The notes beneath the pieces are model-generated. The model had not been told where the DNA came from. It did not search any database and saw only the letters and a program-made list of their open reading frames with translations. This document shows positions 7 to 43,676 of a stretch of 46,538 bases of DNA, piece by piece. Within the stretch, counting starts at the first letter, position 1; each line of letters starts with the position of its first letter. Origin of the DNA: Chromatiales bacterium (GTDB lineage Bacteria; Pseudomonadota; Gammaproteobacteria; Steroidobacterales; BM003); the NCBI GenBank assembly GCA_002868855.1, contig PKUM01000041.1, forward strand, positions 1 through 46,538, written 5' to 3'. A program made the translations under genes and the position numbers.

Positions 7-735
7 TTACAGCATTTCATCGAGGTAGATTGGCAGCATCGCGCGCCAGGCCGGCCAGTCATGGTCATACTCGCTGCCCCAGCCCACGACGCGGTTCGGT
101 ACTTGTTTACTGCCCAGTACCCCCGCCATGCGCCACGTTTCTTCCGGATCCTCCCAGCGTCCGCCGACATAAGTCAACAGTGCGAAGCGTTGGCGCAGCA
201 GATGCAGTTGTTCTCCATCTCCCAGTCCTGGCAGGTAATGCAGCGGAGAACTGTAGAAAAGGTCCATGGTAAATCCGTCATGGCAAAACCGGCTGTAGTC
301 ATAGGTTCCGCTCATACCGATTGCCGCCGCGAATACGTCCGGGTGCCGACACATGCTTGATACGGCATTGAATGCGCCTAGCGAGGCACCCGCCGTGACT
401 ATTTCGACGGTCTCGCTGCGACAGTCGCGGCGGATATGCGGTACGACCTCGCGATACATACACTCGTCGAACCGGTTCTGCAGCAGGCAGCAGTACTCCG
501 TACTGTGTCCGCCTTCGATCCATGCCCGTCCCGCCACACTGTCGACGGAATACAGTTTGACTCGTCCGGCCTCGATCAGGGGCCATACGGCCGCGATAAT
601 GCCCATGCGCTCGACTTCGTCCGCATCGCCGCCGGCGGTCGGAAACAGCAGTACCGGCGTACCCCAGTGGCCCCAGCGGCTCACTCGCAGGTCGCGCTCG
701 AGACGCTCGGAAAACCACACGACCGAATCTTTCAT
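7..735 (-). CDS. Alpha/beta-hydrolase esterase (COG4947-like)
   Basis: This 242-residue protein is probably a cytoplasmic serine esterase: no signal peptide is visible. It has a nucleophile elbow G-A-S-L-G with Ser118 (GASLGAF), and a C-terminal DHDWPAW segment that supplies a plausible catalytic His. The fold and length match the small esterase/lipase-superfamily proteins that flank ATP-grasp genes. It is the last gene of a minus-strand operon, five bases after the ATP-grasp gene, so it probably acts on the ligase product or substrate. The substrate is unknown. The stop codon lies seven bases from the window edge and the gene is complete. Confidence 0.75.
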   Translation of the reverse strand: MKDSVVWFSERLERDLRVSRWGHWGTPVLLFPTAGGDADEVERMGIIAAVWPLIEAGRVKLYSVDSVAGRAWIEGGHSTEYCCLLQNRFDECMYREVVPHIRRDCRSETVEIVTAGASLGAFNAVSSMCRHPDVFAAAIGMSGTYDYSRFCHDGFTMDLFYSSPLHYLPGLGDGEQLHLLRQRFALLTYVGGRWEDPEETWRMAGVLGSKQVPNRVVGWGSEYDHDWPAWRAMLPIYLDEML

Positions 736-740
736 CGCCC

Positions 741-2006
741 CTAGCTCACGAGAAAACTGTCGCTGTTGTCATGCTGGCCCTCCGCGTCGCGCCAGCCCTG
801 GATGCGGTCCCAGAACATGTCCAGGAACTGATCCACCTCATGCCGCGGATATAGTGACACGACTTTTTGCCGGATAGCGTCGCGCGCCGCGTCACTACCG
901 AAAAATTCCCAGGCAATAGCGTCGAGATCGCGAAGGAATGTCATGCAGAACTCTGCGAATCGTTCGGCGTCGAAACCGGCGCGGGCAAGCGCCGCGAATT
1001 GCGCGAGTTTTTCCCGGTCGGGGAGATCGGAGTCGGCGATATCGTAGAACGGCTGCCAATGCAGGTTGCGGCGCATCGGCCGATCCGTCGCCGCGCAGAA
1101 AAGTGCCCAGCGTATCTTGGACTTGATCAGCCATGGAAAGTGGTAGTGCAACGATGTTACCTGGCTGTCGGGGCATGCATTGGCGAAATCGATCGGATGC
1201 CAGGTGCCGTTGCGTTTGAGCGACTCGCAGGAGTTGAAATCCCAGCCGAAAAAGCTGTTTATCGTCAATGTGGTATCCACAATCTCTGCCACGTCGGCAC
1301 TATCCAGGAAACCTCGATCCAGGCCGTAGCGGTCGTGAAGAGGCGCGTCAGGCTGGTATTTCACCAGCCTGACTTGAGGGCCAACCCCGACCGCACGAAC
1401 AAAGTGTTCGAACGGCCAAACCCCTTTCTGCAGGATCATCACCTGTTTTCCGCTCGACTCGTAGGCTTCGCGGAGATCGTGTTCGTTGTCGATCTTGCTG
1501 ACGCCGGCCCAGGCACCGCCGTTGTAAGGTTTCATGAATAACGGGTACCCGATCTTTTCGCCGACTGCCGCCAGATCGAAAAGTTTTGCGTAACGCTGCA
1601 GAGTAGGCTCGAGGTCGTCAACGGGATCGTATTCCTTGGGCGGCAGCAGCCAGGTGTCGGGGATCGGCAGGCCCAGCCGCATCATTGCGCTGTAAGAGGT
1701 CTGCTTTTCCATCGACTGCAACGACCATGGGTTATTGAAGACGTACAAACCATCGAGAAGGATCGATTTTTTTAGCCATTCCCGAGTCGGGTAGTACCAG
1801 TGACTCAGGCGGTCGATAACGACGTCATAGCGACAGGACTGGCGCAGATTGAAGGGTTCGATAGTGACGCGCTCGCAGGTAATGCGTACACGATTACCGG
1901 CGATACGTATGTCGGGGCGAAGGCGCTCGAGAATGGACTCGAAGCAAATTGGCCAGCAAACGTCGGCGCCCAGGGACAATCCTATCCGGCGTGTCTCTTC
2001 GCTCAT
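741..2006 (-). CDS. ATP-grasp ligase, substrate unknown
   Basis: A 421-residue protein with an ATP-grasp core. The nucleotide-binding strand/loop is recognisable at about residues 157-176 (GYPLFMKPYNGGAWAG), and an acidic, Mg-binding-type segment (PIDFANACPDSQ) follows downstream. ATP-grasp enzymes form amide or ester bonds between a carboxylate and an amine or thiol through an acyl phosphate. The N-terminal ~120 residues resemble the pre-ATP-grasp domain of RimK-like ligases. It lies 27 bases after a Fes-type esterase and 5 before another esterase, so bond formation and hydrolysis are encoded together. I do not recognise a characterised orthologue. Confidence 0.75.
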   Translation of the reverse strand: MSEETRRIGLSLGADVCWPICFESILERLRPDIRIAGNRVRITCERVTIEPFNLRQSCRYDVVIDRLSHWYYPTREWLKKSILLDGLYVFNNPWSLQSMEKQTSYSAMMRLGLPIPDTWLLPPKEYDPVDDLEPTLQRYAKLFDLAAVGEKIGYPLFMKPYNGGAWAGVSKIDNEHDLREAYESSGKQVMILQKGVWPFEHFVRAVGVGPQVRLVKYQPDAPLHDRYGLDRGFLDSADVAEIVDTTLTINSFFGWDFNSCESLKRNGTWHPIDFANACPDSQVTSLHYHFPWLIKSKIRWALFCAATDRPMRRNLHWQPFYDIADSDLPDREKLAQFAALARAGFDAERFAEFCMTFLRDLDAIAWEFFGSDAARDAIRQKVVSLYPRHEVDQFLDMFWDRIQGWRDAEGQHDNSDSFLVS

Positions 2007-2033
2007 TACTGTTGCGCCCTCCGGGCTCGTTTT

Positions 2034-3170
2034 TTATTCGTAGACCATCCAAAGTGGACCGGGAAAAAGCCAGCTCAGCCCCGCGCGCAACCGGTCCCTC
2101 CAGTTTTCCCAGTTGTGGCCGTCACGCGCCTCTTCAAACCGCACTTCTGTTCCTGCTGATTGCAGCAAGGGCACCAGTGAGCGGTTTTCATAGATAAGAG
2201 ATTCGTAGATTCCGCAGCTTACAAACATCTTGCTGGCGGGGCGGCCAGGTTGTTGCCGCAACCGGTTGACGAAGTCTACCACTGGATCGAATATCTGGCC
2301 GCGATTGTGAGTGCCGATATCGGTGAACGCAAAAGAGCCCGATTGCAACAGCAGCCGATTGAAGAACCCCGGGTAACGCCATGCCGTATGCAGCGCCGCG
2401 ACAGCACCGAAACTCGCCCCGAGCAGGCCGCGGCTCGCGGGTTCGTCACGTAGCGGAAATGCCTGTCGCAGAGCAGGGTAGAGTTCCTTGACGATGTAAC
2501 GCGCATGGTTGTTGTTGGCGGCGTATTCCACGAGGCGCTCGCCGGGGTCTGACAACGCAACGATCATGGGCGGAATTTCCAATCGGTGGATCAGGTTATC
2601 GAGGACCTGCTGTAGTCCGGAAAACCTCAGATAGTCGCTGCCATCGTGTGCGACGAGCAGCGCATAGCGTCGCTGGCGGCGGAATCGCGCAGGCAGATAG
2701 ACATGGACCTCCTTGCTTGCGCCGAGTGACTCGCTGTCAATTGAGATCTGTTCGATGGTGCCGCGGCGTGCATGCGGATTCTCGAGCGTCCATTCCGGGC
2801 GCGTGTAACCGTGCGCACGGCAAACCGAGTTGGCGCCGAACGGATCCTCCGCGACGCTGTCGTTGAGCGGGTCGACGATCCAGTGGCTGTTGGTGCCGCT
2901 GACTACCTCGAATTTGTACTCGATTCTCGAGCCGCGCGGCAGATCGAGCCGGAAAAACCATAGATCGTGCCGGCCGAGTGCCTCGAGTGACTCGGCGGTG
3001 GGCAAGCCGTAAATCCAGTGCCGGAGCCTGACCGCGTCCGCCGCACCGCGATAGACGAAAGTAACGCCGGCATTGTCGATTAGCGGAAATTCGGCGGCCG
3101 CAATCAGCGCGTCCACCGCATCGGCCGGGGCAGCACTGGCCGCGGCCAGGAACGGGTGCAGTTGGCTCAT
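2034..3170 (-). CDS. Fes-type esterase with N-terminal E-set domain
   Basis: This 378-residue protein has the architecture of enterochelin-esterase-like (COG2382, esterase D) enzymes. An N-terminal beta-sandwich-like region (about residues 30-125, including HDLWFFRLDLPRGSRIEYKF) precedes a C-terminal alpha/beta hydrolase. The nucleophile is Ser253 in GASFG and the likely catalytic His is His352 in DGHNWENW. No signal peptide is present, as in cytoplasmic Fes. The start overlaps the stop of the upstream S51-like gene by four bases, indicating translational coupling. There are no siderophore genes nearby, so ferric-enterobactin hydrolysis is not supported. An ester or amide made by the adjacent ATP-grasp enzyme is a likelier substrate. 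Confidence 0.75.
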   Translation of the reverse strand: MSQLHPFLAAASAAPADAVDALIAAAEFPLIDNAGVTFVYRGAADAVRLRHWIYGLPTAESLEALGRHDLWFFRLDLPRGSRIEYKFEVVSGTNSHWIVDPLNDSVAEDPFGANSVCRAHGYTRPEWTLENPHARRGTIEQISIDSESLGASKEVHVYLPARFRRQRRYALLVAHDGSDYLRFSGLQQVLDNLIHRLEIPPMIVALSDPGERLVEYAANNNHARYIVKELYPALRQAFPLRDEPASRGLLGASFGAVAALHTAWRYPGFFNRLLLQSGSFAFTDIGTHNRGQIFDPVVDFVNRLRQQPGRPASKMFVSCGIYESLIYENRSLVPLLQSAGTEVRFEEARDGHNWENWRDRLRAGLSWLFPGPLWMVYE

Positions 3171-4096
3171 GCCAGTGGGGCTCCGGCAAGGTTGCCCCGA
3201 GCGGTCAGTCGTGCCGTTCCCTGAGCCATGACCGGCTTGTGCCCGGTCACTCGGATTAGCGATCCGGCGTCCAGCGTTACCGGCTGCAACGGATTGAATC
3301 GACGCGCCATCAACGCGACCCGGCGGGGGTCATGCAGGCGCAATCGTTCGCGAGCATGAGGAAGTGGCAGCAGGCGCGGCAACAAGCCGAGCCCGGAGTC
3401 CAGAATCTCCGCATGTCCGGGACCCTGGGGCGGACTGTCGTGGAACAGCACGACGCGCTCCGATAGGGCCATGGCGCCGGCCGACCAGGCGATCAGCCTT
3501 TTCTCCCGCAACTCCGATTCCAGCCCGAACAGTCGCAGCCGGCTGAGTAATGCGGCAACGTGTCCACCCGCCACAAGCACGGCAGCCGCAGCATCCAGCC
3601 GCCGCACGATGGCATCGCGTTGCTCCGCCATGGCGGGCCGATGCGCGGGCCGCCAGCGGGCGTTGAATACCGCATGAACTGCATCGATCTGGCGCACATG
3701 ATGGCGATCGAGGGCACGGATGGCGTTCAACGCAGAGCGCTGTTCCGCAAGCAGTGCCGCGCTGGATCCGGTCTCGGCGGCCAGGCCCAGGTAGGCTTCC
3801 ATCGCATGATGCAGGCGGCGGCGATACCAGCGCTGGCGTTGTCGCAGCCCGGCCTGGCGGGTTCTGTGTGCGTCTGCCAGTTCCGGATCGAGACCCAGAG
3901 CATGATCCAGCCGCTGATAGAGATGCAGATCCTCGACTTCTCTGTCGAGGTGATGCTGCAGTTCCTGTACCTCTCCCTCGCGCTGCTGCCATCCGGCGGT
4001 AATTGAGCATAACGCCCCATCAGTCACGATCTGGCGCGTGGCATCCATCAGGTTTGGGTGATCGGCCTGTGGACCGAGAATGATGATATCCGGCAT
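3167..4096 (-). CDS. S51/cyanophycinase-like class-I GATase-fold protein
   Basis: A 309-residue protein. The first ~160 residues are mostly helical and charged. The second half carries VLVAGGHVAALLSRL and then AWSAGAMAL with Ser205, which matches the nucleophile turn of peptidase S51 enzymes (dipeptidase E, cyanophycinase; consensus G-x-SAGA). His219 in LFHDSPP is a possible catalytic His. Family S51 cleaves Asp-linked peptides, and cyanophycinase works opposite an ATP-grasp synthetase. That parallel fits this operon, where it is the first gene. The order of motifs is family-like, but the helical N-terminus is unusual. Assignment rests on motif reading only. Confidence 0.55.
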   Translation of the reverse strand: MPDIIILGPQADHPNLMDATRQIVTDGALCSITAGWQQREGEVQELQHHLDREVEDLHLYQRLDHALGLDPELADAHRTRQAGLRQRQRWYRRRLHHAMEAYLGLAAETGSSAALLAEQRSALNAIRALDRHHVRQIDAVHAVFNARWRPAHRPAMAEQRDAIVRRLDAAAAVLVAGGHVAALLSRLRLFGLESELREKRLIAWSAGAMALSERVVLFHDSPPQGPGHAEILDSGLGLLPRLLPLPHARERLRLHDPRRVALMARRFNPLQPVTLDAGSLIRVTGHKPVMAQGTARLTARGNLAGAPLA

Positions 4097-4327
4097 GGCG
4101 GGATTCTGGCAGATGCCGGACGGTTAGAGTGAGTGTGCGGTCCCGGTCTGGCACCCGAAATGGCGCGTAATGTCGTCGGGATCTTTTACACCAGGCTGAA
4201 CTGGTTTTGCTTTCCTGTTTCTAAGCTTATGAAAAATATAGAATTTAAGAAAAGGTCCGAATCTTGCAGAAATCACTGGCAAGCAGTGCGTTTTACGCGA
4301 ACGATTCAGAGCAGCAGGGGAGTATCG

Positions 4328-5035: not shown

Positions 5036-7906
5036 ATGAGCCATTCGCTGAAGGACCGTTTTGCGTCGAGTTATCTCTCCGGCGGTAACGCTGCGTATGT
5101 CGAGGAACAGTACGAACTCTTCCTGCGCGATCCGGATCGGGTTTCCCCTGACTGGCGCGACTATTTTTCCAGCCTTACCCAGGATCGTGGCGGCGAGGTT
5201 GCGAGGGGCCCGATAGAGGAGGCGTTTGCGGCTCAGGCACGCAGCGGTCGTCCGGGTCGTACCGCCGCATCGGGTGCGGCCGACGAGAAACAGGCGGCGG
5301 TGGCCAGGCTGATTCAGGTCTACCGGCAGCGAGGTCACCAGATTGCCGATCTCGATCCGCTCGGATTGTGGCAGCGTCCGGTTCCGTCGGTACTGAAACT
5401 GGAGTATTTCGGGCTGTCAGAGGCGGATATGGACTCCAGCTTTGCCACGGGCGGTTTCGCAGGGTCGTCGCGGTTGCGTCTGCGCGAATTACTCGAATTG
5501 TTGCAGCGAACCTATACCGGCAAGATCGGTGCCGACTTTGCCCATGTGTCGCGTGCCCGTGAGCGGCATTGGTTGCAAGAGAGATTCGAAGACCTGGATG
5601 GCTGTTATCCGCTTGCCGGGCAGGACAAGCTGGAGCTGTTGCGTTCCCTTACCGCGGCGGAGGGTATCGAGCGTTATCTGCACACCCGTTACGTTGGGCA
5701 GAAAAGATTCTCACTGGAAGGCGGTGACGCGCTGATTCCGTTACTCGAGGATCTGATCCAGCGCGGCGGCAGTGCGAATCTCGAGGAAGTCGTCATTGGT
5801 ATGGCTCATCGCGGCCGGATCAATGTGCTGGTCAACGTGGTTGGCAAGGCGCCGTCGGAGTTATTTTCCGAGTTTGAAGGCAATTATGACCCGGAGTCGC
5901 TGACCGGTTCGGGCGACGTCAAATATCACCTCGGATTCTCCACCGACATAAAGACCAGTGGCAGCAATGTGCATGTCGCGCTTGCGTTTAACCCGTCGCA
6001 TCTCGAGATCGTCAACCCGGTGGTGGAAGGTTCGGTGCGAGCGCGCCAGGAGCGCCGCGGCGATGCTCATGGCGCCAGCGTGTTGCCGGTGCTGGTGCAT
6101 GGCGATGCCGCGTTTGCCGGGCAGGGCGTCGTGATGGAAACCCTGCAGTTGTCTCTGGCGCGGGGTTTCAGTACGGGTGGAACCGTGCACGTTATCTGTA
6201 ACAACCAGATCGGCTTTACCACCAGCGATCCGCGCGACGCCCGGTCGACTCCTTACAGCAGCGATGTGGCCAAGATGATCGAGGCACCGGTGCTGCATGT
6301 GAATGCGGATGACCCCGAGGCGGTAATCAAGGCCACTCGGCTGGCGTTGGACTATCGCACCGAGTACCGCAAGGACGTGGTGATCGACCTCGTCTGCTAC
6401 CGTCGCCACGGTCACAATGAGGCCGACGAGCCGGCCGCCACCCAGCCGAAGATGTACAAGGCGATTCGCAAGCACAAGACGGTCAGGCAGATCTACGCCG
6501 AAAGACTGGTTGACGAGGGCCTGCTCGACGCCGCGCGCGCGGACGGACTGGTTGAGGAATACCGCAGCCATGTTGACACCGGGGAGCGGGTATCTCCGGT
6601 TTCGCTGGGCCTGATCGGTAACCAGTTCACGGTAGACTGGAGCCGCTATCTCGATGGCCACCTTTACCAGGATGTCGAGTCGGCGCTGGACCCCGAAACC
6701 GTTGCGGAGCTGTCCGCCGCGTTGACCACTTTGCCGGACGAACTGAAACTGCACCCGCGCGTCGATCGGATCATCGGCGATCGGCGCAAGATGGCGAGCG
6801 GTGATCTGCCGATCGACTGGGGCTTTGCCGAATCGCTGGCCTATGCGAGTCTGCTGCGCGACGGATATGCGATAAGGCTGACTGGCCAGGACAGTGGTCG
6901 CGGCACATTTTTTCACCGTCATGCGGTGCTTCACGACCAGGCAAGCGGCAACGACCACATTCCGTTGCAACACGTGGCGAGCGAGCCGAATCGTTTCCGC
7001 GTTACCGATTCCCTGCTCTCTGAGGAGGCGGTACTTGGATTCGAATACGGCTACAGCACCACCGATCCGGAAACACTGGTTATTTGGGAAGGCCAGTTTG
7101 GCGATTTTGTCAACGGCGCCCAGGTAGTAATCGATCAGTTCATTAGTTCGGGCGAAGCCAAGTGGGGACGCCTGTGCGGACTGACGCTGCTGTTGCCGCA
7201 CGGCTACGAGGGGCAGGGGCCAGAGCATTCTTCCGCCCGACTCGAGCGCTTTTTGCAATTGTGCGCCGAACACAATATGCAAGTGTGCGTGCCTTCCAAT
7301 CCCGCGCAGATGTTTCACATGCTTCGCCGGCAAATGCTGCGTGACGCGCGCAAGCCGCTTATCGTAATGACGCCTAAGAGTCTTTTGCGTCACCGCCTTT
7401 CGGTTTCGGCGCTGACCGACCTTTCGCAGGGTCAGTTTCTGAACGTGATTCCGGAGAGCGAGACGCTCGATGCGGACAAAGTTCGCCGGGTCGTTTTTTG
7501 CAGCGGCAAGGTGTTCTACGATCTGCTCGAGTCGCGTTCGACGCACTCGATCGACGATGTTGCGATCATTCGAATCGAACAACTCTACCCGTTTCCAAGT
7601 GACGAATACGCTTTGGAGATCGGGCGCTACGGCAATGCCAGTGAGATTGTGTGGTGTCAGGAAGAGCCTGAAAACCAGGGAGCCTGGTACCAGATACGGC
7701 ACCGCTTGCATGAGGCGCTGCTGCCCAGGCACAAACTTCTGTACGCTGGGAGAGCAGGTGCGGCGGCGCCGGCTTCCGGCATATACCGTATGCACGTTCA
7801 ACAACAACAGACGCTGGTCAAGGAGGCGCTCGGTATCGCGGCGACCGTCGAGGCCGGCGATGACACAGATGCCAGTAGCAGCGTCAGTCTTAGGAAGAAA
7901 GCATGA
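5036..7906 (+). CDS. sucA: 2-oxoglutarate dehydrogenase E1 (thiamine-diphosphate)
   Basis: SucA decarboxylates 2-oxoglutarate and transfers the succinyl group to the lipoyl arm of SucB in the cytoplasmic TCA-cycle complex. The 956 residues are close to the family norm (E. coli about 933). The N-terminus has [16 protein letters not shown], typical of the E2-binding region. The thiamine-diphosphate core includes [25 protein letters not shown] and, later, [11 protein letters not shown] and [17 protein letters not shown]. The start ATG lies 204 bases after the DUF5658 gene. A weak sigma-70-like promoter (TGAACT, 17-base spacer, TAGAAT at 4982-4987) lies upstream. The stop overlaps the sucB start by four bases. 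Confidence 0.97.
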
Positions 7907-9117
7907 CAATTGAAGTCAAAGTCCCGCAATTACCGGAATCGGTAGCCGACGCCACGCTGGTTGCGTGGCACAAGTCAGCTGGTGATGCCGTCGCCCGTGA
8001 CGAGAACCTCGTCGATCTCGAAACCGACAAGGTCGTTCTCGAGGTGCCGGCGCCGGCCAACGGCGTTCTCAAGGAAATCCGTATCGCGGACGGCACCACG
8101 GTCACCAGTGGCGAAGTCCTGGCGATTCTGGAGGAGGGCGAGGCCCCGGCTTCTGCGCCGGCGGCGGCTGTCGCGGAGCCCGCCGCGAAAGAGTCTGGGG
8201 AGCGGGAGGCCGCACCGGCCGAGCCGGTCGCCGAAGCAGGCGGCAAGGCTGCCGCAAAACTCAGCCCTTCGGTACGACGGCTTCTTGACGAACACGGTCT
8301 CGATGCGGAATCGATCCCCGGGAGCGCGCGCGATGGCCGCCTGACCAAAGCCGATGTAAACAAGTACATCGCTGATCGCGGCAAGGCGTCACCGGGGGTA
8401 GCCCTTCCCGACGGTGGGCGGGGAGAGAAACGTGTGCCGATGACGCGCCTCCGGGCACGCATTGCGGAGCGCCTGGTCGAAGTGCAGCAGTCCGCGGCGA
8501 TGTTGACTACGTTCAACGAAGTCGATCTGACCAAGGTCATGGCGTTGCGCAAACGCTACCGTGATCGATTCGAAAAGGACCATGGCGTGCGGCTCGGCTT
8601 CATGTCGTTCTTCGTCAAAGCTGCGGTTCAGGCGCTTGGCCGGTTCCCGGCCGTAAACGCATATGTAGACGGCAGCGAAATCGTTTATCACGACTACTTC
8701 GATATTGGCATCGCGGTTTCGACCGAGCGCGGCCTGGTGGTGCCGGTTTTGCGCGATGCGGATTCGCTCGGATTTGCGGAAATCGAGCAGGGCATCGGCG
8801 ACTTTGCCGGACGCGCCCGTGATGGCGCCCTGACTATCGAAGAGATGACCGGCGGCACTTTCACGATTACCAATGGCGGCGTGTTTGGCTCGCTGCTTTC
8901 GACGCCGATCATTAATCCGCCGCAGAGTGCGATTCTCGGCATGCACAAGATTCAGGAGCGGCCGATGGTGGTCGACGGGCAGATCCTGGTGCGGCCGATG
9001 ATGTACCTGGCACTGACTTATGACCACCGTATCATTGATGGCCGCGAGTCGGTGCAGTTCCTGGTGGCGATCAAGGAGGCGCTGGAAGACCCGGCGCGCC
9101 TGTTACTTCAGATCTGA
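7903..9117 (+). CDS. sucB: Dihydrolipoyl succinyltransferase E2
   Basis: This is the E2 core of the 2-oxoglutarate dehydrogenase complex, moving the succinyl group from lipoamide to CoA. The 404 residues comprise one lipoyl domain (lipoylated Lys in [12 protein letters not shown], about residue 43), an Ala/Pro/Glu-rich linker, a peripheral-subunit-binding domain (about 115-150, [19 protein letters not shown]) and the catalytic domain. The latter has the acyltransferase motif [14 protein letters not shown] near the C-terminus. Start ATGA overlaps the sucA stop, so the two are translationally coupled. Confidence 0.97.
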
Positions 9118-9189
9118 TTCGATACGCGTTTCCGGTCGCGCCTCTGCCGGTTTCCTGCTGTGGCGTGCCTTGTGTGGCGCTCTTATTAA

Positions 9190-10629
<1,440 letters not shown>

Positions 10630-23361: not shown

Positions 23362-24474
23362 TCAGGACAGCAGACCGTTGTGCTGGTCCTGCGACCAGAT
23401 GCTCCAGGTGATCGCGCCAGTAAGCGCGCCAACCGGCCCGAGAAGAATGCCAAAGTGGAGCAGGCCCTGGAGAAGGTCGCCCCGATCGAACAACACGAAG
23501 ATTACCGTGACAAGGAGTAGTTGCGCTGCCCAGCCTGCGGCGGCGCTGTGCAGCGTTCCCCGGCTGGGCCCCGCCAGCGTACTGATAATGGCGCCGATCA
23601 GTCCCCAGCATAATGCGATTACCAGCGCCACCAGGCTGGTCGCCAGCGCTTCGTAGGGCTGAAGTCCGCGGATCGCCGCGAACGCATAGGTGGTGGCATG
23701 GGTCGCCACGAACCCCGCCGCTGCCGAAGTTGCCGCGACTTTCATCGCGACCGGAAGCAGGTGGCGAACCGGCGCCACCCAGTCATCGATTTCCTCGCGG
23801 GTTTCATTTGGCGCTGGAGGCGCCACCGCGCCCGGTTGCGGCGTCGTTTCGACTCCGCCCACGCTCTCGCCACGGTTTTTCGCCTGTCCCGGCGCGGTCG
23901 CATCATCGAGGAAGTTCTCGCGAACGGATTTGTCCGGTTCGGCGCCAACATGCGCTAGCAACTCGTCGCGGCGTTTATCGAGTTCTCGCGCAAGCCGTGC
24001 CCGATTGATAGCGTTCAGCTGCGCCTCGATTCCACGGACGAGCTTCTCGGTATCGGCCGTGAAGCCGGCATGACTGATCCGGGCACCATTGCGTCGCGCA
24101 AGCGCTCTCAGGTCGTCGGGTAATTCGACTTCACGCGGTGACTGCGCTTGTTCCACGAACACCGGGATTATCGGAATATCGCGCTTCAGCGCTGCAAGTA
24201 TTTCAAGCCTCACGTAGTCTTGCGGATCGTCGAGTCGGCGCTTGCCTTCCGCGTCCTTTGCGTCGAGCCAGTCCGGACCGATGACGACCAGCATCAGGTC
24301 GCATGCGCTGACCGATTCCTCGATCTTCTCCACGAAGTCAGTACCGAGCGGAATAGCATCGATATCGAAAAAGATGTCTTTCTCATTGAATTTATCGCAC
24401 AGGCGATCATAGATACGGCCGGTCGCGTGCGAGGCGTCGGCGCGCCGGTAACTCAGAAAAATTCGTCCGCTCAC
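23362..24474 (-). CDS. TIR-domain membrane protein
   Basis: A 370-residue protein with an N-terminal TIR domain (about 1-140): RIFLSYRRADAS is box 1, DIFFDIDAIPLG the BB-loop region, and Glu91 in DYVRLEILAAL sits where catalytic TIR NADases carry their Glu. A Lys/Glu-rich linker with a Pro/Ala segment follows (about 150-225), then roughly four hydrophobic segments (AMKVAATSAAAGFVATHA, SLVALVIALCWGLIGAIIS, AAQLLLVTVIFVLF, LLHFGILLGPVGALTGAITW). TIR domains in bacteria hydrolyse NAD or mediate assembly; here membrane-anchored signalling or defence is an inference. No obvious partner gene adjoins it. Confidence 0.8.
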   Translation of the reverse strand: MSGRIFLSYRRADASHATGRIYDRLCDKFNEKDIFFDIDAIPLGTDFVEKIEESVSACDLMLVVIGPDWLDAKDAEGKRRLDDPQDYVRLEILAALKRDIPIIPVFVEQAQSPREVELPDDLRALARRNGARISHAGFTADTEKLVRGIEAQLNAINRARLARELDKRRDELLAHVGAEPDKSVRENFLDDATAPGQAKNRGESVGGVETTPQPGAVAPPAPNETREEIDDWVAPVRHLLPVAMKVAATSAAAGFVATHATTYAFAAIRGLQPYEALATSLVALVIALCWGLIGAIISTLAGPSRGTLHSAAAGWAAQLLLVTVIFVLFDRGDLLQGLLHFGILLGPVGALTGAITWSIWSQDQHNGLLS

Positions 24475-30579: not shown

Positions 30580-31854
30580 TTATACCAGCCCGGCAAATGG
30601 TTGCACGGTTACCGTCGATCCGGCTGGTACTTTCTCCTGATCGATCGGCAAAACGATAAAGCAATTCGCTTCGGCCATCGAACGCAATACACCTGCGCCC
30701 TGGTGGTCGGTACCTCTTACGACGTAGTGGCCGTCAGCGCCGCGCGACAGGATGCCGCGCTGAAACTCGAGCCGCCCGGCTTTCTTGCGCAGACCGGTCT
30801 CGCAGATTGCCCTGATCAATATCGGAGGGTCAGTACGGTCAAGGCCCATCAACGAATGAAGCGCTGGCTGCACGACCTGATAAAAGGTCGCCATCACCGA
30901 GACGGGATTCCCGGGCAACCCGAAGAACAAAGCGTCCCCGACGTGGCCAAATGCGACGGGTCGGCCGGGTTTCATCGCGATTTTCCAGAAATCGACGGAA
31001 CCGACACGGGCCAGTGTATCGGTGACGAAGTCAGCTTCGCCGACGGAGACACCGCCGGAAGTGATGATGGCATCGGCAACTTGCGAAGCATCGAGAAAAG
31101 CCTGTTCGACGTCTTCGCGCCGATCCCTGATCACACCCATGTCCAGAACCGGTAATCCCATGCGCCTGAGCATGCCAAACAGCGAATACCGGTTGCTGTC
31201 GTAAATCTGACCATCCGCCAGTGTTTCGCCGATCCCGCGCAACTCGTCGCCGGTCGAGAAAAATGCAATAACGGGAAGCCGTCGTACGCGGACTTCGCCG
31301 ATTCCCAGCGACGCGATCAGGCCGAGGTGGGCCGACCGCAGCAGCGTCCCGCCGGCAAGGGCGATGTCGCCTGCGCTGATGTCCTCGCCCGCGGGGCGAA
31401 CATGCTGACCGGCCTTGTTGTCAGGTCCCAGTGTGGCGCTGTCGCCCTCTCTTGTTACATGCTCCTGGATAACCACCGTATCGCAGCCGGGCGGCAACGG
31501 CGCTCCGGTCATGATGCGAACGCACTGCCCCGGGTCAACGGTGCCGGTGAACGGCCGTCCCGCCCACGCGGTGCCGATCACTGCATAACTGCGCGGGCGG
31601 TCCTGCGGCAGGTCGGCACCGGAGAGGGCGTATCCGTCCATCGCGGAGTTGGTATGTGGCGGTACGTCGACGGCCGACACGACATTCTGCGCCAGCACTC
31701 GTCCCAGCGCGCTGCGCAGGTCCAGTGTTTCGGTTCCCGGGACCGGTGTTATCGATGAGCGAATACGTGCGACGGCCTCGTCCAGCGACAACGCCTCGCT
31801 GTCGTGAGGGTCCATGCAACTCGGAGCATGTGCCTCGGTTTCAGGGCGGTTCAT
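30580..31854 (-). CDS. moeA: Molybdopterin molybdenumtransferase MoeA
   Basis: MoeA inserts molybdate into adenylylated molybdopterin. The 424-residue product has all expected parts: NSAMDGYALSGADL, GAPLPPGCDTVVIQEHV, FSTGDELRGIG, SGGVSVGEADFV, and KIAMKPGRPVAFGHVGDALFFGLPGNPVSV, then a C-terminal domain. The start ATG at 31854 overlaps the mobA stop (ATGA), which is better than a longer in-frame start at 31962 inside mobA. It is translationally coupled to mobA in the cofactor operon. Confidence 0.94.
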   Translation of the reverse strand: MNRPETEAHAPSCMDPHDSEALSLDEAVARIRSSITPVPGTETLDLRSALGRVLAQNVVSAVDVPPHTNSAMDGYALSGADLPQDRPRSYAVIGTAWAGRPFTGTVDPGQCVRIMTGAPLPPGCDTVVIQEHVTREGDSATLGPDNKAGQHVRPAGEDISAGDIALAGGTLLRSAHLGLIASLGIGEVRVRRLPVIAFFSTGDELRGIGETLADGQIYDSNRYSLFGMLRRMGLPVLDMGVIRDRREDVEQAFLDASQVADAIITSGGVSVGEADFVTDTLARVGSVDFWKIAMKPGRPVAFGHVGDALFFGLPGNPVSVMATFYQVVQPALHSLMGLDRTDPPILIRAICETGLRKKAGRLEFQRGILSRGADGHYVVRGTDHQGAGVLRSMAEANCFIVLPIDQEKVPAGSTVTVQPFAGLV

Positions 31855-32480
31855 TTGCCGGTCTCCGCTGTTCGTTGAGGGGCCGGGTCCGTCTGGCTCA
31901 GTTTTACTTCGAGCGCGGCGACGTCGGCCGGTTCGTTTACATTGAGGAAATTGTCCCGGCAATCGCTGAAGTCAGCAAGCTCCATTGAGTGACTGGCGTA
32001 CCAGCGATCTATTTTTCGCCCACCACCGCCGAGATACGTCTCCAGGCTGTCAAGCAACGTTGTCTTGAGCAGCGAGAAAACCGGCTGCAGACGTTCTCCG
32101 TCATGAGCGACGCACACCTCGGCCCCATTGCTCAGATAGCATTGCCATAAGCGTTCGGCGAGGTCGGGGACGATCAAGGGAGAGTCGCACGGCACCGTTA
32201 GTATGTGAGTGGTCCGGGCCGCCCGCATCCCGCTTGCCATGCCGGCGAGCGGACCAAGAAATCCACTGTCGCTGTCTGCTACGACGGCGTAGCCGAAGCC
32301 GGCATAAAGATCGCTATTCCGGTTCGCATTGATCGCGATAGTTTCTACCTGGGGGCGCAACGCCCTTATCGTCCACTCGACCATCGGTCTGCCGCACAGA
32401 GAAATAAGACCCTTGTCGACGCCCCCCATGCGGCGGGCCTGGCCACCTGCCAGGACGATACCGGTAATCTGATTTTGCAT
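31851..32480 (-). CDS. mobA: Molybdenum cofactor guanylyltransferase MobA
   Basis: MobA attaches GMP to Mo-molybdopterin to give the bis-MGD cofactor used by formate dehydrogenase. The 209 residues begin MQNQITGIVLAGGQARRMGG, the nucleotide-binding signature, and contain PCDSPLIVPDLAERLW and FLNVNEPADVAAL at conserved places. The start at 32480 directly precedes the signature; an extended frame from 32582 would overlap a candidate sigma-54 promoter. It opens the eight-gene minus-strand operon mobA, moeA, moaB, BNR, yqeC, JAMM, Ubl, E1. Confidence 0.92.
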   Translation of the reverse strand: MQNQITGIVLAGGQARRMGGVDKGLISLCGRPMVEWTIRALRPQVETIAINANRNSDLYAGFGYAVVADSDSGFLGPLAGMASGMRAARTTHILTVPCDSPLIVPDLAERLWQCYLSNGAEVCVAHDGERLQPVFSLLKTTLLDSLETYLGGGGRKIDRWYASHSMELADFSDCRDNFLNVNEPADVAALEVKLSQTDPAPQRTAETGK

Positions 32481-36415: not shown

Positions 36416-37026
36416 GTGACAAGGATTCGGTTCGGACCGCGCCGGCAGCGCCGCCGAGCGATGACGAGGAAGGTTTTCTGAGTCGCTGGTCGCGGCTAAA
36501 AAACGCGGAACGCAGCGGTGTCGCGGAGGGACCCGAACAGGACATTGCGGCCCCCGCGGCGCTGCCCGGTGATGATGGCGCCACAGAAGAGACCGAATCC
36601 GCTCCGTTGACCGATGCCGATATGCCGCCCCTGGAATCGTTGAGCGGCAATTCCGATGTAAGTGGATTCCTGTCGAAGGGTGTCAGCGAGGGATTGCGCC
36701 GCGCCGCGCTGCGCAAATTATTTCACAGTCCCAAGTTCAACGTTTGCGACGGGCTCGATGATTATTGCGAGGATTTCACGAACTTTCCCGCTCTCGGTTC
36801 CACGATCACGGCGGATATGCGTCACCACATGGAGCGACTTTTGAAAGAGCGTATGGCGCAAGCCGGCGAAGCGGTCGAATCGAGCGACGCGCAGGACAGC
36901 GTGGCGCGATCCGGGGCCGCAGCGGCGGACACCGATGGTGGCGAGAATATGGACGAGAATCTGGATGTCCCTGCGGACGGAGATGAGTCTCGAGCAAAGG
37001 TGAACAATGACCGAAAAGATGTCTGA
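36412..37026 (+). CDS. DUF3306 protein, FDH-associated
   Basis: A 204-residue acidic protein. EEGFLSRWSRLKNAER near residue 20 and the central GFLSKGVSEGLRRAALRKLFHSPKFNVCDGLDDYCEDFTNF match DUF3306. Long Ala/Asp/Glu-rich stretches flank the conserved core, suggesting disorder. It is translationally coupled to DUF3305 and overlaps the downstream ferredoxin gene by 20 bases. Role presumed in FDH assembly; unproved. Confidence 0.85.
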   Translation: MSDKDSVRTAPAAPPSDDEEGFLSRWSRLKNAERSGVAEGPEQDIAAPAALPGDDGATEETESAPLTDADMPPLESLSGNSDVSGFLSKGVSEGLRRAALRKLFHSPKFNVCDGLDDYCEDFTNFPALGSTITADMRHHMERLLKERMAQAGEAVESSDAQDSVARSGAAAADTDGGENMDENLDVPADGDESRAKVNNDRKDV

Positions 37027-38671
37027 GTACCCGGCTGCGACAGCGCACGGTGCGGCGCGCGCGATTGCGCTGACCGAACGCCGCCGGGCCGAGGTCACGC
37101 CGACATCGATAGTTACTTATCTTTCGCGCGGCCGGCTGTTGATTGTGGGCGCCGAGGAAGTTGCGGTGCCGATTGCCATGGGCCTGCCCGAAAGCCTCCA
37201 TTGTGTGGTTCTGGCGCCGCCGGGCGACGGCAAGCCGGCGGTTAGTGAGGACGGCGCAATTCAGATTGCACGATTCGGATCGCCGCAAATCAGCGGCAGT
37301 CTCGGGCAGTTCGACGTCGGTGTCGAGATAGGCGGTGAATTCAGGTCGCTGGTGTCCCTGTTGCCACGCGCTGGCGATTGTTTCGATCTCGTGCTCGATC
37401 TCGGCGTGCCGGCGCTCCTTTCGCAGGAGGTGCTTCCGGTCGGGTATTACGCGCCCGGTGGCGATGCGCAAGCACTGGACGCGGCCTTGGCTGAATTGCC
37501 GGAGATGCGCGGCGAATTTGAAAAGCCGAAATTTTTCGCCTACGACGCCGAGATTTGTGCGCACGGCGGCAGTGGTATCAGCGGATGCACGCGCTGTATC
37601 GATGCTTGCCCGACGCTGGCTATCACATCGCTTGGCAATACCGTGGAAGTCAACCCCAATCTTTGTCAGGGCGGCGGTAGTTGCGTCACCGCTTGTCCCA
37701 GTGGTGCCATGCGGTACGCCTATCCCAGCGTTAGCGATTTGCTGGGGTACGTCAGGACCCTGATCAGGGCTTATCGTGACGCCGGCGGCGAGAATCCCTG
37801 TATCGTTTTTCATGACGAGGCTTCAGAGGCAGCGGTCTCCGCGTGTCTGCGAAATGGCGGCTGCGAAAACCTCCTGCCGGTTGGTTTGGAGGAGATCGGT
37901 TCGGTCGGGATGGATACCTGGCTTGCCTGCCTGGCCTATGGCGCGGGATCGGTCGTACTCGCCGTCGACGCCGGGACGCCGAAGCGCGTGCAGCGCGAAT
38001 TGAGTGCGCAGGAAGGATTTGTCCGGCCAATACTCGAGGCATTGGGACTACAGCAGGACTGTCTGCTGCTGGTCCGTGCGGACGCTTCCGGTCTCGCGGT
38101 TCTGGAGTCCGGTCTGCCAGTGTCGCCATTGTCGCGGCCGGCGACGTTTGCGGCGCCGGACGAAAAACGCACGGTGATTCGTCTGGCCGTCGATCATCTG
38201 TTCGCCCAGGCCAGCCCACAGCGCAAGCAGGCGAAGCTGCCGGCAGGTGCGCCTTTTGGCGATATACGGGTTGACCGGGACGCCTGTACCTTGTGTATGG
38301 GGTGCGTCGACATCTGTCCGGTCAATGCGCTGCGGGATGGTGCCGGGCTGCCGCAGTTGAATTTTGCCGAGGCGAGTTGCGTGCAGTGCGGTCTGTGCGA
38401 AAAAGCCTGTCCCGAGGACGCTATTCAAAGGGCGCCGAGATACCTGTTCGACAGCGAGGCACGAAACAAGCCGCGCACGCTTAACGAGGAGCAGCCATTC
38501 TGTTGTATTACCTGCGGCAAGCCTTTCGCGACCCGATCGATGCTGGACGTGATGCAGAAGAAGCTCGAAGGGCATTGGATGTTTCAAACGGACGAATCGC
38601 GGCGACGCCTGCACATGTGCGAGAACTGCCGGGTGAAGGACATGTTTTCGGGCGAGGCAGGGAACGCATGA
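37007..38671 (+). CDS. Multi-cluster 4Fe-4S ferredoxin of the FDH locus
   Basis: A 554-residue cytoplasmic iron-sulfur protein. Cys motifs for four [4Fe-4S] clusters appear in two pairs: CTRCIDACPTLAI with CQGGGSCVTACPSGAM (about 190-235), and CTLCMGCVDICPVNAL with CVQCGLCEKACPEDAI (about 425-475). Between them is a ~170-residue domain without Cys pairs typical of clusters. The C-terminus has CCITCGKPFATRS and CENCRVKDMF, a possible zinc ribbon. This protein type recurs with DUF3305/3306 and FDH and may deliver electrons or reductant during maturation. AAGGTG precedes the ATG at 37007. Confidence 0.85.
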   Translation: MTEKMSEYPAATAHGAARAIALTERRRAEVTPTSIVTYLSRGRLLIVGAEEVAVPIAMGLPESLHCVVLAPPGDGKPAVSEDGAIQIARFGSPQISGSLGQFDVGVEIGGEFRSLVSLLPRAGDCFDLVLDLGVPALLSQEVLPVGYYAPGGDAQALDAALAELPEMRGEFEKPKFFAYDAEICAHGGSGISGCTRCIDACPTLAITSLGNTVEVNPNLCQGGGSCVTACPSGAMRYAYPSVSDLLGYVRTLIRAYRDAGGENPCIVFHDEASEAAVSACLRNGGCENLLPVGLEEIGSVGMDTWLACLAYGAGSVVLAVDAGTPKRVQRELSAQEGFVRPILEALGLQQDCLLLVRADASGLAVLESGLPVSPLSRPATFAAPDEKRTVIRLAVDHLFAQASPQRKQAKLPAGAPFGDIRVDRDACTLCMGCVDICPVNALRDGAGLPQLNFAEASCVQCGLCEKACPEDAIQRAPRYLFDSEARNKPRTLNEEQPFCCITCGKPFATRSMLDVMQKKLEGHWMFQTDESRRRLHMCENCRVKDMFSGEAGNA

Positions 38672-38706
38672 ATTCACGGCCAGGATTCGCCATAATGTGC
38701 CAGCGC

Positions 38707-38721
38707 TGGAAAAAATGTCGC
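38707..38721. promoter_or_regulatory. Operator copy upstream of torD-fdh operon
   Basis: TGGAAAAAATGTCGC matches GGGACAAAATGTCCC in 12/15 positions, centred about 103 bases upstream of the predicted transcription start. A weaker copy (10/15) lies at 38687-38701, 20 bp away. A separate perfect palindrome CCAGCGCTGG overlaps at 38699-38708. Confidence 0.5.
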
Positions 38722-38789
38722 ACATGGCGAGAGAATTTCGATTCAAGGCAGATAAATGGTAAGTTTGGCTGTGTTTTTTCCGAATAGAC

Positions 38790-38806
38790 ATGGCCTGCTT
38801 CTTGCT
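38790..38806 (+). promoter_or_regulatory. Sigma-54 promoter of torD-fdh operon
   Basis: ATGGCCTGCTTCTTGCT matches both conserved elements: TGGC at -24, TTGCT at -12, GG-N10-GC spacing exact. This is the strongest -24/-12 promoter in the window. Transcription would start near 38817, 21 bases before the torD ATG, leaving room for the CAGAGG ribosome site. Confidence 0.75.
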
Positions 38807-38837
38807 TTGTTAGGCAACACCGTCCGCAGAGGCATGT

Positions 38838-39509
38838 ATGGCTGAAGTGTCAGTGACAGATTCCGAGCTCTCCGAACCGCTTGCTGCGGTGGTGTCCGGT
38901 GAGGATCAGCTGCGGGCCAATACCTATAGTCTGCTCGGCGCACTTTTGGCGGCTCCACCCGGGCCCGCTCTGGTAGAGAAACTGAGCGAAATCGATGCCG
39001 AAGAAGGCGATGCTTCCAGTCTTCTTGGCGCCGCCTGGGGAATGCTCAAGGGTGCGGCCGGTCGGGCCGAGTGCGGCCTTCTCGATGACGAGTATCACGA
39101 GTTATTCATCGGCGTCGGGCGCGGCGAACTGGTACCTTACGGCTCATGGTATCTGACCGGATTCCTGATGGAGCAGCCACTGGCGCAACTGCGTTCCGAT
39201 CTGGACGCGCTTGGACTCGGGCGCAAGCAGGACGTTGCGGAGCCGGAAGATCATGCGGCGGCATTGTGCGAAGCAATGTCGCTGATCGTCGAAGCCGAGG
39301 CCGGCAGTGACGCCGAGCGCCAGGCAGAATTTTTCACTCGACACATTCAGTCGTGGATGGGTCGGTTTTTCAGAGATTTGCAACAGGCGGATGCAGCGCA
39401 TTTTTATCGTGCGGTCGGCCAGTTGGGCGAGCAGTTTTTGGAGGTGGAGTCGCAGTATCTGGCGATGGCCGCCCCGCGGCTCGATGACAGCCGGAGTCAA
39501 TCGGGCTGA
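38838..39509 (+). CDS. TorD/DmsD-family molybdoenzyme chaperone
   Basis: A 223-residue all-helical cytoplasmic chaperone. LRANTYSLLGALLAAPP, the central EYHELFIGVGRGELVPYGSWYLTGFLMEQPLAQLRSDL and ARTE-like later segments (EAEAGSDAERQAEFFTRHIQSWMGRFFRDL) match the TorD family. Such chaperones bind the Tat signal of a molybdoenzyme and help cofactor insertion before export; here the client is surely the FDH alpha subunit encoded just downstream. It is the first gene of the operon behind the sigma-54 promoter. Confidence 0.9.
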   Translation: MAEVSVTDSELSEPLAAVVSGEDQLRANTYSLLGALLAAPPGPALVEKLSEIDAEEGDASSLLGAAWGMLKGAAGRAECGLLDDEYHELFIGVGRGELVPYGSWYLTGFLMEQPLAQLRSDLDALGLGRKQDVAEPEDHAAALCEAMSLIVEAEAGSDAERQAEFFTRHIQSWMGRFFRDLQQADAAHFYRAVGQLGEQFLEVESQYLAMAAPRLDDSRSQSG

Positions 39510-39554
39510 GTCGAATTGATAATCCAGAGTGTGTAGTTCGGGAGGAAGAGGGAA

Positions 39555-39764
39555 ATGACCGAGGCGAAAAAAACTGAACGGAACGACCGTCGTAAGTTTC
39601 TCAAAGATCTTGCGGTCGCTGGCGGCGCTACTGCGGCCGTAGTCGTGTCTGGCACCGCGCACGGCGACGAGATCGAAGTCCGCGACGACAGCGTGAGGCC
39701 GGCCAGCCCGGGCTACAAGGTCACATCTCACGTTGAGACTTATTACAAGAAAGCGCGGTTCTGA
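39555..39764 (+). CDS. Small Tat-signal protein of FDH operons
   Basis: A 69-residue protein consisting of a twin-arginine signal (DRRKFLKDLAVAGGATAAVVVSG, about residues 14-36) and a short hydrophilic tail ending YKVTSHVETYYKKARF. This matches the 'formate dehydrogenase region TAT target' family (TIGR02811). The strong site GGAGGAAGAGGG precedes the ATG. The protein is exported and probably associates with the periplasmic enzyme, perhaps as a small subunit. It sits between torD and fdhA. Confidence 0.85.
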   Translation: MTEAKKTERNDRRKFLKDLAVAGGATAAVVVSGTAHGDEIEVRDDSVRPASPGYKVTSHVETYYKKARF

Positions 39765-39825
39765 CGGATAGCGGCAGACGCGAAGCCAGAAAAGAGATTA
39801 CCAGCACAATTTCGAGGGAACAGCG

Positions 39826-42708
39826 ATGAAGCTGATCAAAAAAAGAGACCTGACCGGGCCAGAGGCAAAGCATGCGCTTTCAGGTGTGCTCGGCAGCGCG
39901 ATAGACAGAAGGACATTCCTGAGTCGAACCGGCCTGGCGCTGGGCGGCGGAGCCGTGGCGGGCGCATTGCCAACATCGATGATTGGTCGCGCCGAAGCAA
40001 AAGCAGCGGCAGCTACCGGTGAGATATCGACGAAACGGTCGGTGTGTACCCATTGCTCTGTTGGCTGCGGCGTAATCGCCGAGGTGCAGAACGGTGTCTG
40101 GGTCGCACAGGAACCGGACTTCGACTCGCCGTTCAACCTGGGCGGTCATTGCGCCAAGGGCGCGTCCGTGCGCGAGCATGGTCACGGCGAGCGTCGGCTT
40201 AAATACCCAATGAAGAAAGTCGCCGGCAAATGGAAGAAAATTTCCTGGGACGATGCGATCAACGAAATTGGCGATCAGCTTCTCTCCATTCGCGAAAAAT
40301 CAGGCCCCGACTCGGTGTACTGGCTGGGTTCGGCCAAGTTCAACAACGAGCAGGCTTACCTGTATCGCAAATTCGCGGCGATGTGGGGAACGAATAATGT
40401 CGATCACCAGGCGCGTATCTGTCATTCGACGACCGTAGCGGGGGTGGCTAACACCTGGGGCTACGGTGCTATGACCAACTCCTACAATGACATGCACAAC
40501 TGCAAGACGATGTTCTTTATCGGCAGCAACGCGGCGGAAGCTCATCCGGTAGCGATGCAGCACATCCTCCGCGGCAAGGAGAACGGTGCCAAGTTCATCG
40601 TTGCGGATCCGCGATACACCCGCACGGCAGCGCATTCGGACCAGCATCTGCGCCTCCGTCCCGGCACGGACGTACCGCTGATTTATGGCCTGCTCTGGCA
40701 TATTTTCGAAAATGACTGGCAGGACGACGAGTACATCAGGCAGCGTGTCTGGGGCATGGACGAGGTGCGCGCCGAAGTCGCCAAGTGGACGCCCGATGTG
40801 GTCGAGGACGTAACCGGAATACCTGGTGACGAGGTTCGCGAGGCCGCCAAGACGATGGCCGAGAATCGCCCGGGCACGATTGTCTGGTGCATGGGTGGAA
40901 CTCAGCACACGATTGGCAACAACAACACGCGCGCCTACTGCATCCTTCAGCTGGCGCTTGGCAACATCGGCAAGTCGGGTGGCGGCGCCAATATTTTCCG
41001 CGGTCATGACAATGTCCAGGGCGCTACCGATTTCGGTGTGCTGGCGGATACCCTGCCTGGCTACTACGGTCTGTCGGACGGCTCGTGGAAGCACTGGAGC
41101 CGCGTCTGGGACCTCGATTACGAATGGGTCAAGGGCCGCTTCGATCAGGGCAGTTACGAAGAGGGTGGCAAGGAAGTCAAGGCGATGAACCTGCGCGGTA
41201 TCACAGTGTCGCGCTGGATCGATGGCATCCTCGAAGATCCGGCGAACATTGCGCAGAATGACAACCTGCGGGCGATGTTCCTCTGGGGCCATGCGCCGAA
41301 CAGCCAGACTCGCGGTCCGGAGCAGAAGAAAGCGATGGAGAAGGTGGACCTGCTGGTTGTTGTCGACCCGGTGCCGACGGTTACCGCGGTGCTCCCCGAC
41401 AGGGACGACAATTTCTACCTGCTGCCCTGTACGACACAATTCGAAACCTACGGTTCGGTTACCGCTTCGAATCGGTCCCTGCAGTGGCGTGAGAAAGTTA
41501 TCGATCCGTTGTTCGATTCGCTGCCCGATCACATCATCATGTACAAGATGGCCAAGAAGCTCGGGTTCGATCAACAGTTGTTCAAGAACATCAAGGTTAA
41601 CGGCGAAGAGCCATTGATCGAGGACATCACCCGCGAATGGAACAGCGGCATGTGGACAGTCGGTTATACCGGGCAGAGTCCGGAACGCCTGAAGCTGCAC
41701 ATGGAAAACAAACATACCTTCAATACGACTACGTTGAAGGCCGAGGGCGGTCCCGCGGATGGCGACTATTACGGTTTGCCGTGGCCGTGCTGGGGCACCG
41801 CGGATATGAAGCATCCGGGCACGCCCAATCTGTATGACACCAGCAAGAACGTTGCTGACGGTGGGCTGAATTTCCGCGCCCGTTTTGGGGTCGAGCGCGA
41901 CGGCGAAAGCTTGCTCGCGGACGGCTCCTACAGTAAGGGTGCGGAAATCCAGGACGGGTATCCGGAGTTCACCGCGGACATGCTGAAACAACTGGGCTGG
42001 TGGGATGATCTCACTGCCGACGAGAAAGCGGCAGCCGAGGGCAAGAACTGGAAGACCGATTTGTCGGGTGGAATCCAGCGCGTTGCTATCAAGCATGGCT
42101 GTGCACCGTTCGGCAACGCCAAGGCGCGTGCGGTAGTCTGGACTTTCCCCGACCCGGTACCGATTCATCGAGAGCCGCTCTACACGAGCCGCCATGATCT
42201 GGTCGCGAAGTATCCGACGTACGAGGATCGCAAGCGTTTCTGGCGACTGCCGACACGCTACCAGTCAATCCAGGAGAAAGACTATTCCGGTGACTATCCG
42301 TTGGTGCATACCTCGGGACGACTTGTGGAATATGAAGGCGGCGGTGAAGAGTCGCGTTCAAATCCGTGGTTGGCTGAATTGCAGCAGGACATGTTTGCCG
42401 AGATTCATCCGGGTGATGCCAACGACAACGGAATCAAAGACGGGCAGTGGATCTGGCTCGAGGGGCCGGAGGGCGGCAAGATCAAGGTCAAGGCAATGGT
42501 GACGCGTCGCGTCGGACGCGGCGTAGTCTGGACGCCATATCATTTTGGCGGCTGGTTCCAGGGCGAGGATCTGATCGACAAGTATCCGGAAGGAGCAAAC
42601 CCGTACGTACGCGGTGATTCGGCCAACACGGCTTTCACTTATGGCTATGACTCGGTGACTGCGATGCAGGAAACCAAGGCCAGCCTCTGCAAGATTACGC
42701 CGGCCTAG
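39826..42708 (+). CDS. fdhA: Formate dehydrogenase alpha subunit, Cys type, Tat-exported
   Basis: FdhA oxidises formate at a bis-MGD molybdenum (or tungsten) centre in the periplasm. The 960 residues begin with a Tat signal (DRRTFLSRTGLALGGGAVAG, Arg28-Arg29). The proximal [4Fe-4S] site is CTHCSVGC (Cys74, 77, 81) with a later GHCAKGA. The active-site metal ligand is Cys199 in HQARICHSTTVAG, encoded by TGT at 40420-40422, where E. coli FdnG has selenocysteine (TGA). Lys/His neighbours and MGD-binding segments (GSNAAEAHPVAMQHI, FLWGHAPNSQTRGP) are present. It lies 14 bases before fdhB. Confidence 0.95.
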   Translation: MKLIKKRDLTGPEAKHALSGVLGSAIDRRTFLSRTGLALGGGAVAGALPTSMIGRAEAKAAAATGEISTKRSVCTHCSVGCGVIAEVQNGVWVAQEPDFDSPFNLGGHCAKGASVREHGHGERRLKYPMKKVAGKWKKISWDDAINEIGDQLLSIREKSGPDSVYWLGSAKFNNEQAYLYRKFAAMWGTNNVDHQARICHSTTVAGVANTWGYGAMTNSYNDMHNCKTMFFIGSNAAEAHPVAMQHILRGKENGAKFIVADPRYTRTAAHSDQHLRLRPGTDVPLIYGLLWHIFENDWQDDEYIRQRVWGMDEVRAEVAKWTPDVVEDVTGIPGDEVREAAKTMAENRPGTIVWCMGGTQHTIGNNNTRAYCILQLALGNIGKSGGGANIFRGHDNVQGATDFGVLADTLPGYYGLSDGSWKHWSRVWDLDYEWVKGRFDQGSYEEGGKEVKAMNLRGITVSRWIDGILEDPANIAQNDNLRAMFLWGHAPNSQTRGPEQKKAMEKVDLLVVVDPVPTVTAVLPDRDDNFYLLPCTTQFETYGSVTASNRSLQWREKVIDPLFDSLPDHIIMYKMAKKLGFDQQLFKNIKVNGEEPLIEDITREWNSGMWTVGYTGQSPERLKLHMENKHTFNTTTLKAEGGPADGDYYGLPWPCWGTADMKHPGTPNLYDTSKNVADGGLNFRARFGVERDGESLLADGSYSKGAEIQDGYPEFTADMLKQLGWWDDLTADEKAAAEGKNWKTDLSGGIQRVAIKHGCAPFGNAKARAVVWTFPDPVPIHREPLYTSRHDLVAKYPTYEDRKRFWRLPTRYQSIQEKDYSGDYPLVHTSGRLVEYEGGGEESRSNPWLAELQQDMFAEIHPGDANDNGIKDGQWIWLEGPEGGKIKVKAMVTRRVGRGVVWTPYHFGGWFQGEDLIDKYPEGANPYVRGDSANTAFTYGYDSVTAMQETKASLCKITPA

Positions 42709-42722
42709 GAGGGTATCAAACC

Positions 42723-43316: not shown

Positions 43317-43373
43317 GCACAAGGTGCGAAGCCTATGCCAACGGTCATCTCAGTAATGTCTAAGGGGGGAGCA

Positions 43374-43559: not shown

Positions 43560-43676
43560 CGAACGATATTATGTCCGGAGCGTTTCGACTGACGTCTCCG
43601 GGCGAATAATCGTTTCGCGGCTGTCGTCCTGCTCAGACGCGGGGCACAACGAGGACTGACAGGAGGACCTGAGTCC

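Follow-up and report, generated by a model that had tools for sequence, protein, structure and literature searches.

What could a single bond-forming enzyme and three apparent hydrolases, packed into one small gene cluster of a Chromatiales bacterium, be doing together? The cluster lies at the edge of the window, that is, the whole stretch of 46,538 nucleotides that was analysed, which is the entire contig C213 of a genome (G000) of 337 contigs. On the minus strand, four co-directional, nearly touching open reading frames follow one another in the order S51, Est2, grasp1, Est1 (Table 1), which confirms the four coupled genes described in the first-pass annotation of this DNA. The overlap of 4 bp between the first two genes and the gaps of 27 bp (Est2 to grasp1) and 5 bp (grasp1 to Est1) are what an operon would predict; a scan of the operon for promoters and terminators was uninformative. 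Only 6 bases separate the stop codon of Est1, the last gene, from the end of the contig, and the operon may thus extend downstream, past position 1. On the opposite side, beyond S51, come a divergent short gene and then sucA/sucB.

Table 1. Features of the four-gene locus in the window.
Feature	Coordinates	Strand	Basis
S51/GATase-like protein, 309 aa	3167..4096	-	PF03575, AlphaFold, Foldseek, family conservation
Est2, Fes-like alpha/beta-hydrolase, 378 aa	2034..3170	-	PF00756, PDB Fes match, putative triad
grasp1, ATP-grasp ligase (predicted), 421 aa	741..2006	-	Weak Ddl sequence matches, AlphaFold and Foldseek, invariant residues
Est1, alpha/beta-hydrolase, 242 aa	7..735	-	PF00756, conserved triad residues, profile match to Est2
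4-bp overlap, S51 stop/Est2 start	3167..3170	-	ORF coordinates and sequence
Sigma-70-like weak match at the operon 5' end, not above chance	4083..4112	-	1 match, against 2.0 expected from shuffled sequence

The presumed bond-forming member, grasp1, belongs to a divergent family, as its score against the D-Ala-D-Ala ligase model PF07478 (22.1 bits) stays below the cut-off of 24. Its AlphaFold model (pLDDT 88.7) is matched by Foldseek to ArgX (2.4e-10), Ddl, RimK and synapsin, and six residues (Lys101, Lys159, Asp256, Glu261, Asp273 and Asn276) are invariant in 46 of 46 family members, including Chitinophaga homologues that are only 29% identical. The predicted fold, together with these expected ATP/Mg residues, places grasp1 in the ATP-grasp superfamily, and the earlier assignment of one bond-forming ATP-grasp enzyme therefore holds. 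Cyanophycin synthetase models do not appear among the matches listed for it. While grasp1 shares its fold and ATP/Mg ligands with ArgX/LysX, RimK and Ddl, it is only 15-17% identical to them, has an extra C-terminal helical region and forms a family of its own, about 60% identical across phyla.

Est1 and Est2 both exceed the cut-off of 22 bits for the Esterase family PF00756, Est1 with 26.1 and Est2 with 80.4. Their putative triads are Ser118-Glu195-His225, with Ser118 in a GASLG motif, and Ser253-Glu323-His352, with Ser253 in GASFG; the second triad is invariant in all 31 members of its family, and in the first Ser118 and His225 are invariant (29/29) and Glu195 is present in 28 of 29. Profile alignment relates the two esterases with 96% probability and superimposes all three putative triad residues, of which Glu presumably supplies the acid. 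The N-terminus of Est2 is an E-set region of the Enterochelin_N/CBM-like kind (Enterochelin_N in 31/31 members), and the closest solved structure is the enterobactin esterase Fes (PDB 2b20, E 1.5e-12). With Fes/IroD, Est2 has in common the alpha/beta-hydrolase fold, the N-terminal region and a Ser...His spacing with a GH-x-x-W-type motif. A true CBM48 domain was considered and rejected: matches occur in 5 of the 31 members and are weak (best E 0.0066), and a comparison with a GlgB by hhalign did not back them. Glucan binding by the N-terminal domain is thus only suggested.

The fourth protein had been assigned to the S51/GATase group, and its predicted structure does fall into the S51 fold. 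It scores 31.9 bits against Peptidase_S51 (PF03575), above the gathering cut-off of 23.9; the profile matches 39 of the 46 family members. Its AlphaFold model (pLDDT 93.7) finds pseudo-CphB, cyanophycinase and dipeptidase E as best Foldseek matches (E 5e-7 to 3e-6), with a probability of 1.00 to CphB, pseudo-CphB and PepE. With these S51 enzymes the protein shares the GATase-like fold and a nucleophile elbow (Ser205 in WSAGA), and His247 and Asp276 are present; it differs from them in a long two-helix insertion, an identity of 11-15% and scores below every equivalog cut-off (cyanophycinase, 13 vs 126.6 bits; dipeptidase PepE, 12.6 vs 156). Ser205 is conserved in 43 of the 46 members and replaced in three, and the presumed catalytic His247, assigned by alignment with the PHA motif of DR_1070, is a His in 26 and absent in the other 20. 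The window protein has both residues and may be active, as judged from its sequence, but peptidase activity cannot be the role of the whole family. All three nucleophile motifs of the first-pass annotation are therefore present and largely or fully conserved; its three serine hydrolases stand as far as the two esterase-type proteins are concerned, whereas in some genomes the S51 member may have a role other than that of a peptidase. The family as a whole retains the Ser, often lacks the His and keeps two Arg and one Pro invariant, and a shift toward binding or a different mechanism is possible.

Are the four genes a unit beyond this one contig? Scanning the collection with grasp1 as query returned 78 loci, and the order and orientation S51-Est2-grasp1-Est1 recur in at least seven phyla: Planctomycetota, Acidobacteriota, Actinomycetota, Myxococcota, Gemmatimonadota, Eiseniibacteriota and Pseudomonadota. 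In a survey of 90 loci, counted apart from the window and the Chitinophaga loci, the gene immediately before grasp1 is Est2 in 67 of 81 testable cases and the gene immediately after it is Est1 in 72 of 84, an order beyond chance. The gene preceding Est2 is S51 in 47 of 71 cases and a GCS2 ligase in eight. A close grasp1 was found in just two of 369 genomes in an evenly drawn class sample. Among 59 closer relatives, Est2 and grasp1 occur in the identical 16 and in none of the other 43 (Fisher p 9e-15). Co-conservation of the four genes, on which the first-pass annotation had staked its operon, is thus borne out. In the grasp1 tree the phyla are intermixed, the window's own order is split and the window protein sits on a lone long branch; this mixing and splitting suggests horizontal transfer. 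Two Chitinophaga loci (L107 and L108, about 5258-10326) carry a distant core made up of Est1, a grasp1 with 29-30% identity, GCS2, a GATase-like protein of class I and a protein of 397 aa that matches no family; the GATase-like protein may replace the S51 protein there.

Many relatives possess a larger cassette, in which one to three ATP-grasps resembling L-amino-acid ligases, or a GCS2 ligase, are added to the four-gene core. These additional ATP-grasps form a second family, G2, whose three paralogous lines (G2a, G2b and G2g) share about 32% identity with one another, and their resemblance to L-amino-acid ligases and to the dapdiamide synthase DdaF consists of weak matches. Of the 16 relatives with grasp1, 12 also have G2-type ATP-grasps, against 0 of the 43 without it (p 1.6e-9). 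Other recurring partners are a YbdK-type GCS2 ligase and a GCS2-CBS protein. Unlike the clusters of L-amino-acid ligases such as dapdiamide DdaF and bacilysin BacD, which the G2 ligases match weakly, the larger cassettes contain no known genes for non-proteinogenic amino acids but have glycogen genes in their place.

Glycogen genes are the second kind of recurring partner: GlgA, GlgC or a debranching enzyme lies within or next to the cassette in 32 of the 90 loci, and a cassette-linked GlgA reaches 539 bits against TIGR02095. The fullest form, from the window's own order (L122), reads GlgC-G2a-S51-Est2-grasp1-Est1-G2b(antisense)-GlgA-G2g, and in L130 the core is flanked by GlgC on one side and GlgA-MalQ-GlgB on the other. 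We estimate a chance of about 1% for three such genes of a 4-Mb genome to fall within a locus of 13 kb. The GlgA tree requires at least three changes between module-linked and unlinked copies, and the linked copies form separate groups, so that the association seems to have arisen repeatedly and not to go back to a single inheritance. In the family f3, the module-linked GlgA of two genomes (G409 and G419) is far from the second, ordinary GlgA of the same genome. Of the 16 relatives with the core, 15 have GlgA, compared with 24 of the 43 others (p 0.006, uncorrected for relatedness). At the other extreme, 17 of 55 long loci contain no glycogen, G2 or GCS2 gene.

Allowing for the end of the contig, the window most likely has the minimal form, with the core alone. 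No G2-type ligase was found in a search across its genome, and GlgA and GlgC are convergent on another contig (C251) and were rejected as a continuation of the operon; the genomes G383 and G395 likewise have the core alone. The GCS2 genes of the window's genome, on C313, C45 and C48, stand in unrelated settings and were also rejected. On C313 (L110:458-2469) a GCS2 ligase is directly followed by an apparent N-formylglutamate amidohydrolase; a similar GCS2 pair adjoins a C39-like peptidase gene about 3 kb past the module in L125 (16030-17972).

The reading favoured here, to which we give a probability of about 45%, takes the four genes as the central part of a conserved cassette that spreads horizontally, works in the cytoplasm and serves an amino-acid or peptide amide pathway with a functional coupling to the metabolism of glycogen (alpha-glucan). 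From gene order, families, catalytic residues, co-occurrence and the glycogen linkage in relatives, we infer substrates, an order of reactions and a physical tie to glycogen as follows. With ATP, grasp1 would turn a carboxylate into an acyl phosphate and then join it to an amine (or hydroxyl); the product, on an amino acid or peptide, would most likely be an amide and less likely an ester. Est1 and Est2, as Ser-Glu-His alpha/beta-hydrolases, would cleave or transfer an ester of an intermediate or product, Est2 perhaps docking on glucan via its N-terminal E-set domain. The resulting peptide or isopeptide would be hydrolysed or bound by the S51-fold protein. The pathway may be longer in the many relatives that have one to three G2 ATP-grasps or a GCS2 carboxylate-amine ligase, and GlgA and GlgC would supply or consume ADP-glucose or glycogen. 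Against this coupling speak the loci with a lone core and the separate contig of GlgA and GlgC in the window's genome, which also lacks a G2 ligase, and adjacency to glycogen genes does not prove shared chemistry. A more specific version is rather unlikely, namely that glycogen or glycogen synthase carries amino-acid or peptide groups in several phyla, which the ATP-grasps build, the Fes-like esterases attach or remove as a glucan ester, and the S51-fold protein trims or senses. Some selected function must lie behind a gene set whose order holds across at least seven phyla, whose members strictly co-occur and which is found again and again with glycogen operons; if that function couples amino-acid or peptide ligation to glycogen, either bacterial glycogen is chemically modified or carbon and nitrogen are stored in a joint reserve. 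Since cultured carriers exist, Boseongicola aestuarii among them, the coupling is directly testable. The literature searched (ATP-grasp with glycogen, esterase or cyanophycinase) holds no description of the cassette, although an earlier mention is possible in the amidoligase-neighbourhood survey of Iyer et al. (2009). Loci of graspetide RiPPs also pair an ATP-grasp with an alpha/beta-hydrolase neighbour, as the cassette does, and the survey of them (PMC8939145) mentions neither glycogen nor S51 nor cyanophycinase; no precursor gene was noticed beside the ligase in an unsystematic look.

A free-standing small peptide or amide metabolite, such as an osmolyte or secondary metabolite of the kind made by dapdiamide, bacilysin or NAGGN ligases, is possible if doubtful; the glycogen neighbourhood would then reflect shared regulation and not chemistry. 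The resemblance of the extra ATP-grasps to L-amino-acid ligases and DdaF fits such a product, as do the two loci in which the core stands without partner genes (L128 and L131) and the apparently cytoplasmic nature of all the proteins, judged by their N-termini. It accounts less well for a linkage to GlgA, GlgC, MalQ, GlgB and debranching enzyme that is repeated in several phyla, and the core lacks a dedicated exporter. The small ester or peptide metabolite originally suggested for this operon thus keeps its amino-acid or peptide chemistry, as an inferred feature, but probably not its independence: the amino-acid ligases and glycogen genes added in relatives move the likely biology from free-standing to glycogen-coupled.

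That grasp1 instead tags a protein with amino acids, for instance glycogen synthase or a carrier, and that the S51-fold protein strips them off again, seems quite unlikely. Such tagging is in keeping with the best fold matches of grasp1, ArgX (which works with LysW) and RimK, and with GlgA as a frequent neighbour, but it leaves the two esterases unexplained, the core in the window has no adjacent GlgA, and no gene for a LysW-type carrier protein was noticed in an unsystematic look at the clusters.

Synthesis of cyanophycin or a similar polymer by the ATP-grasp and its degradation by the S51 protein is very improbable and mostly refuted. CphA combines an ATP-grasp with a Mur ligase in about 860 aa, and no CphA-like gene is found in the module, where grasp1 is the sole ATP-grasp of the window operon. 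The S51 fold is indeed nearest to cyanophycinase and pseudo-CphB, but the shortfall against the cyanophycinase model and the variable His reduce the parallel with cyanophycin, drawn when the operon was first described, to a resemblance. That Est2 hydrolyses an enterobactin-type siderophore, assisted by the other three genes, is hardly credible, for although Fes is its nearest solved structure, Est2 scores 100.7 bits against the NCBIfam enterochelin esterase, below the equivalog cut-off of 222, and the neighbours of the module show no recurring genes for making or taking up siderophores; the partners that do recur are amide ligases and glycogen enzymes. The favoured glycogen-coupled cassette probably works like other amide-ligase pathways, yet the tests made place it outside both the cyanophycin and the enterobactin systems.

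Elsewhere in the window, translations point to a formate dehydrogenase-like region at 37007-44765 (ferredoxin-like protein, large molybdopterin subunit and cytochrome b subunit); upstream of it, at 30580-31962, lies a gene of molybdopterin type. A further gene on the minus strand (23362-24474) appears from its translation to encode a TIR-like N-terminal domain together with predicted membrane segments, and a tRNA-Lys is found shortly after it, at 25015.
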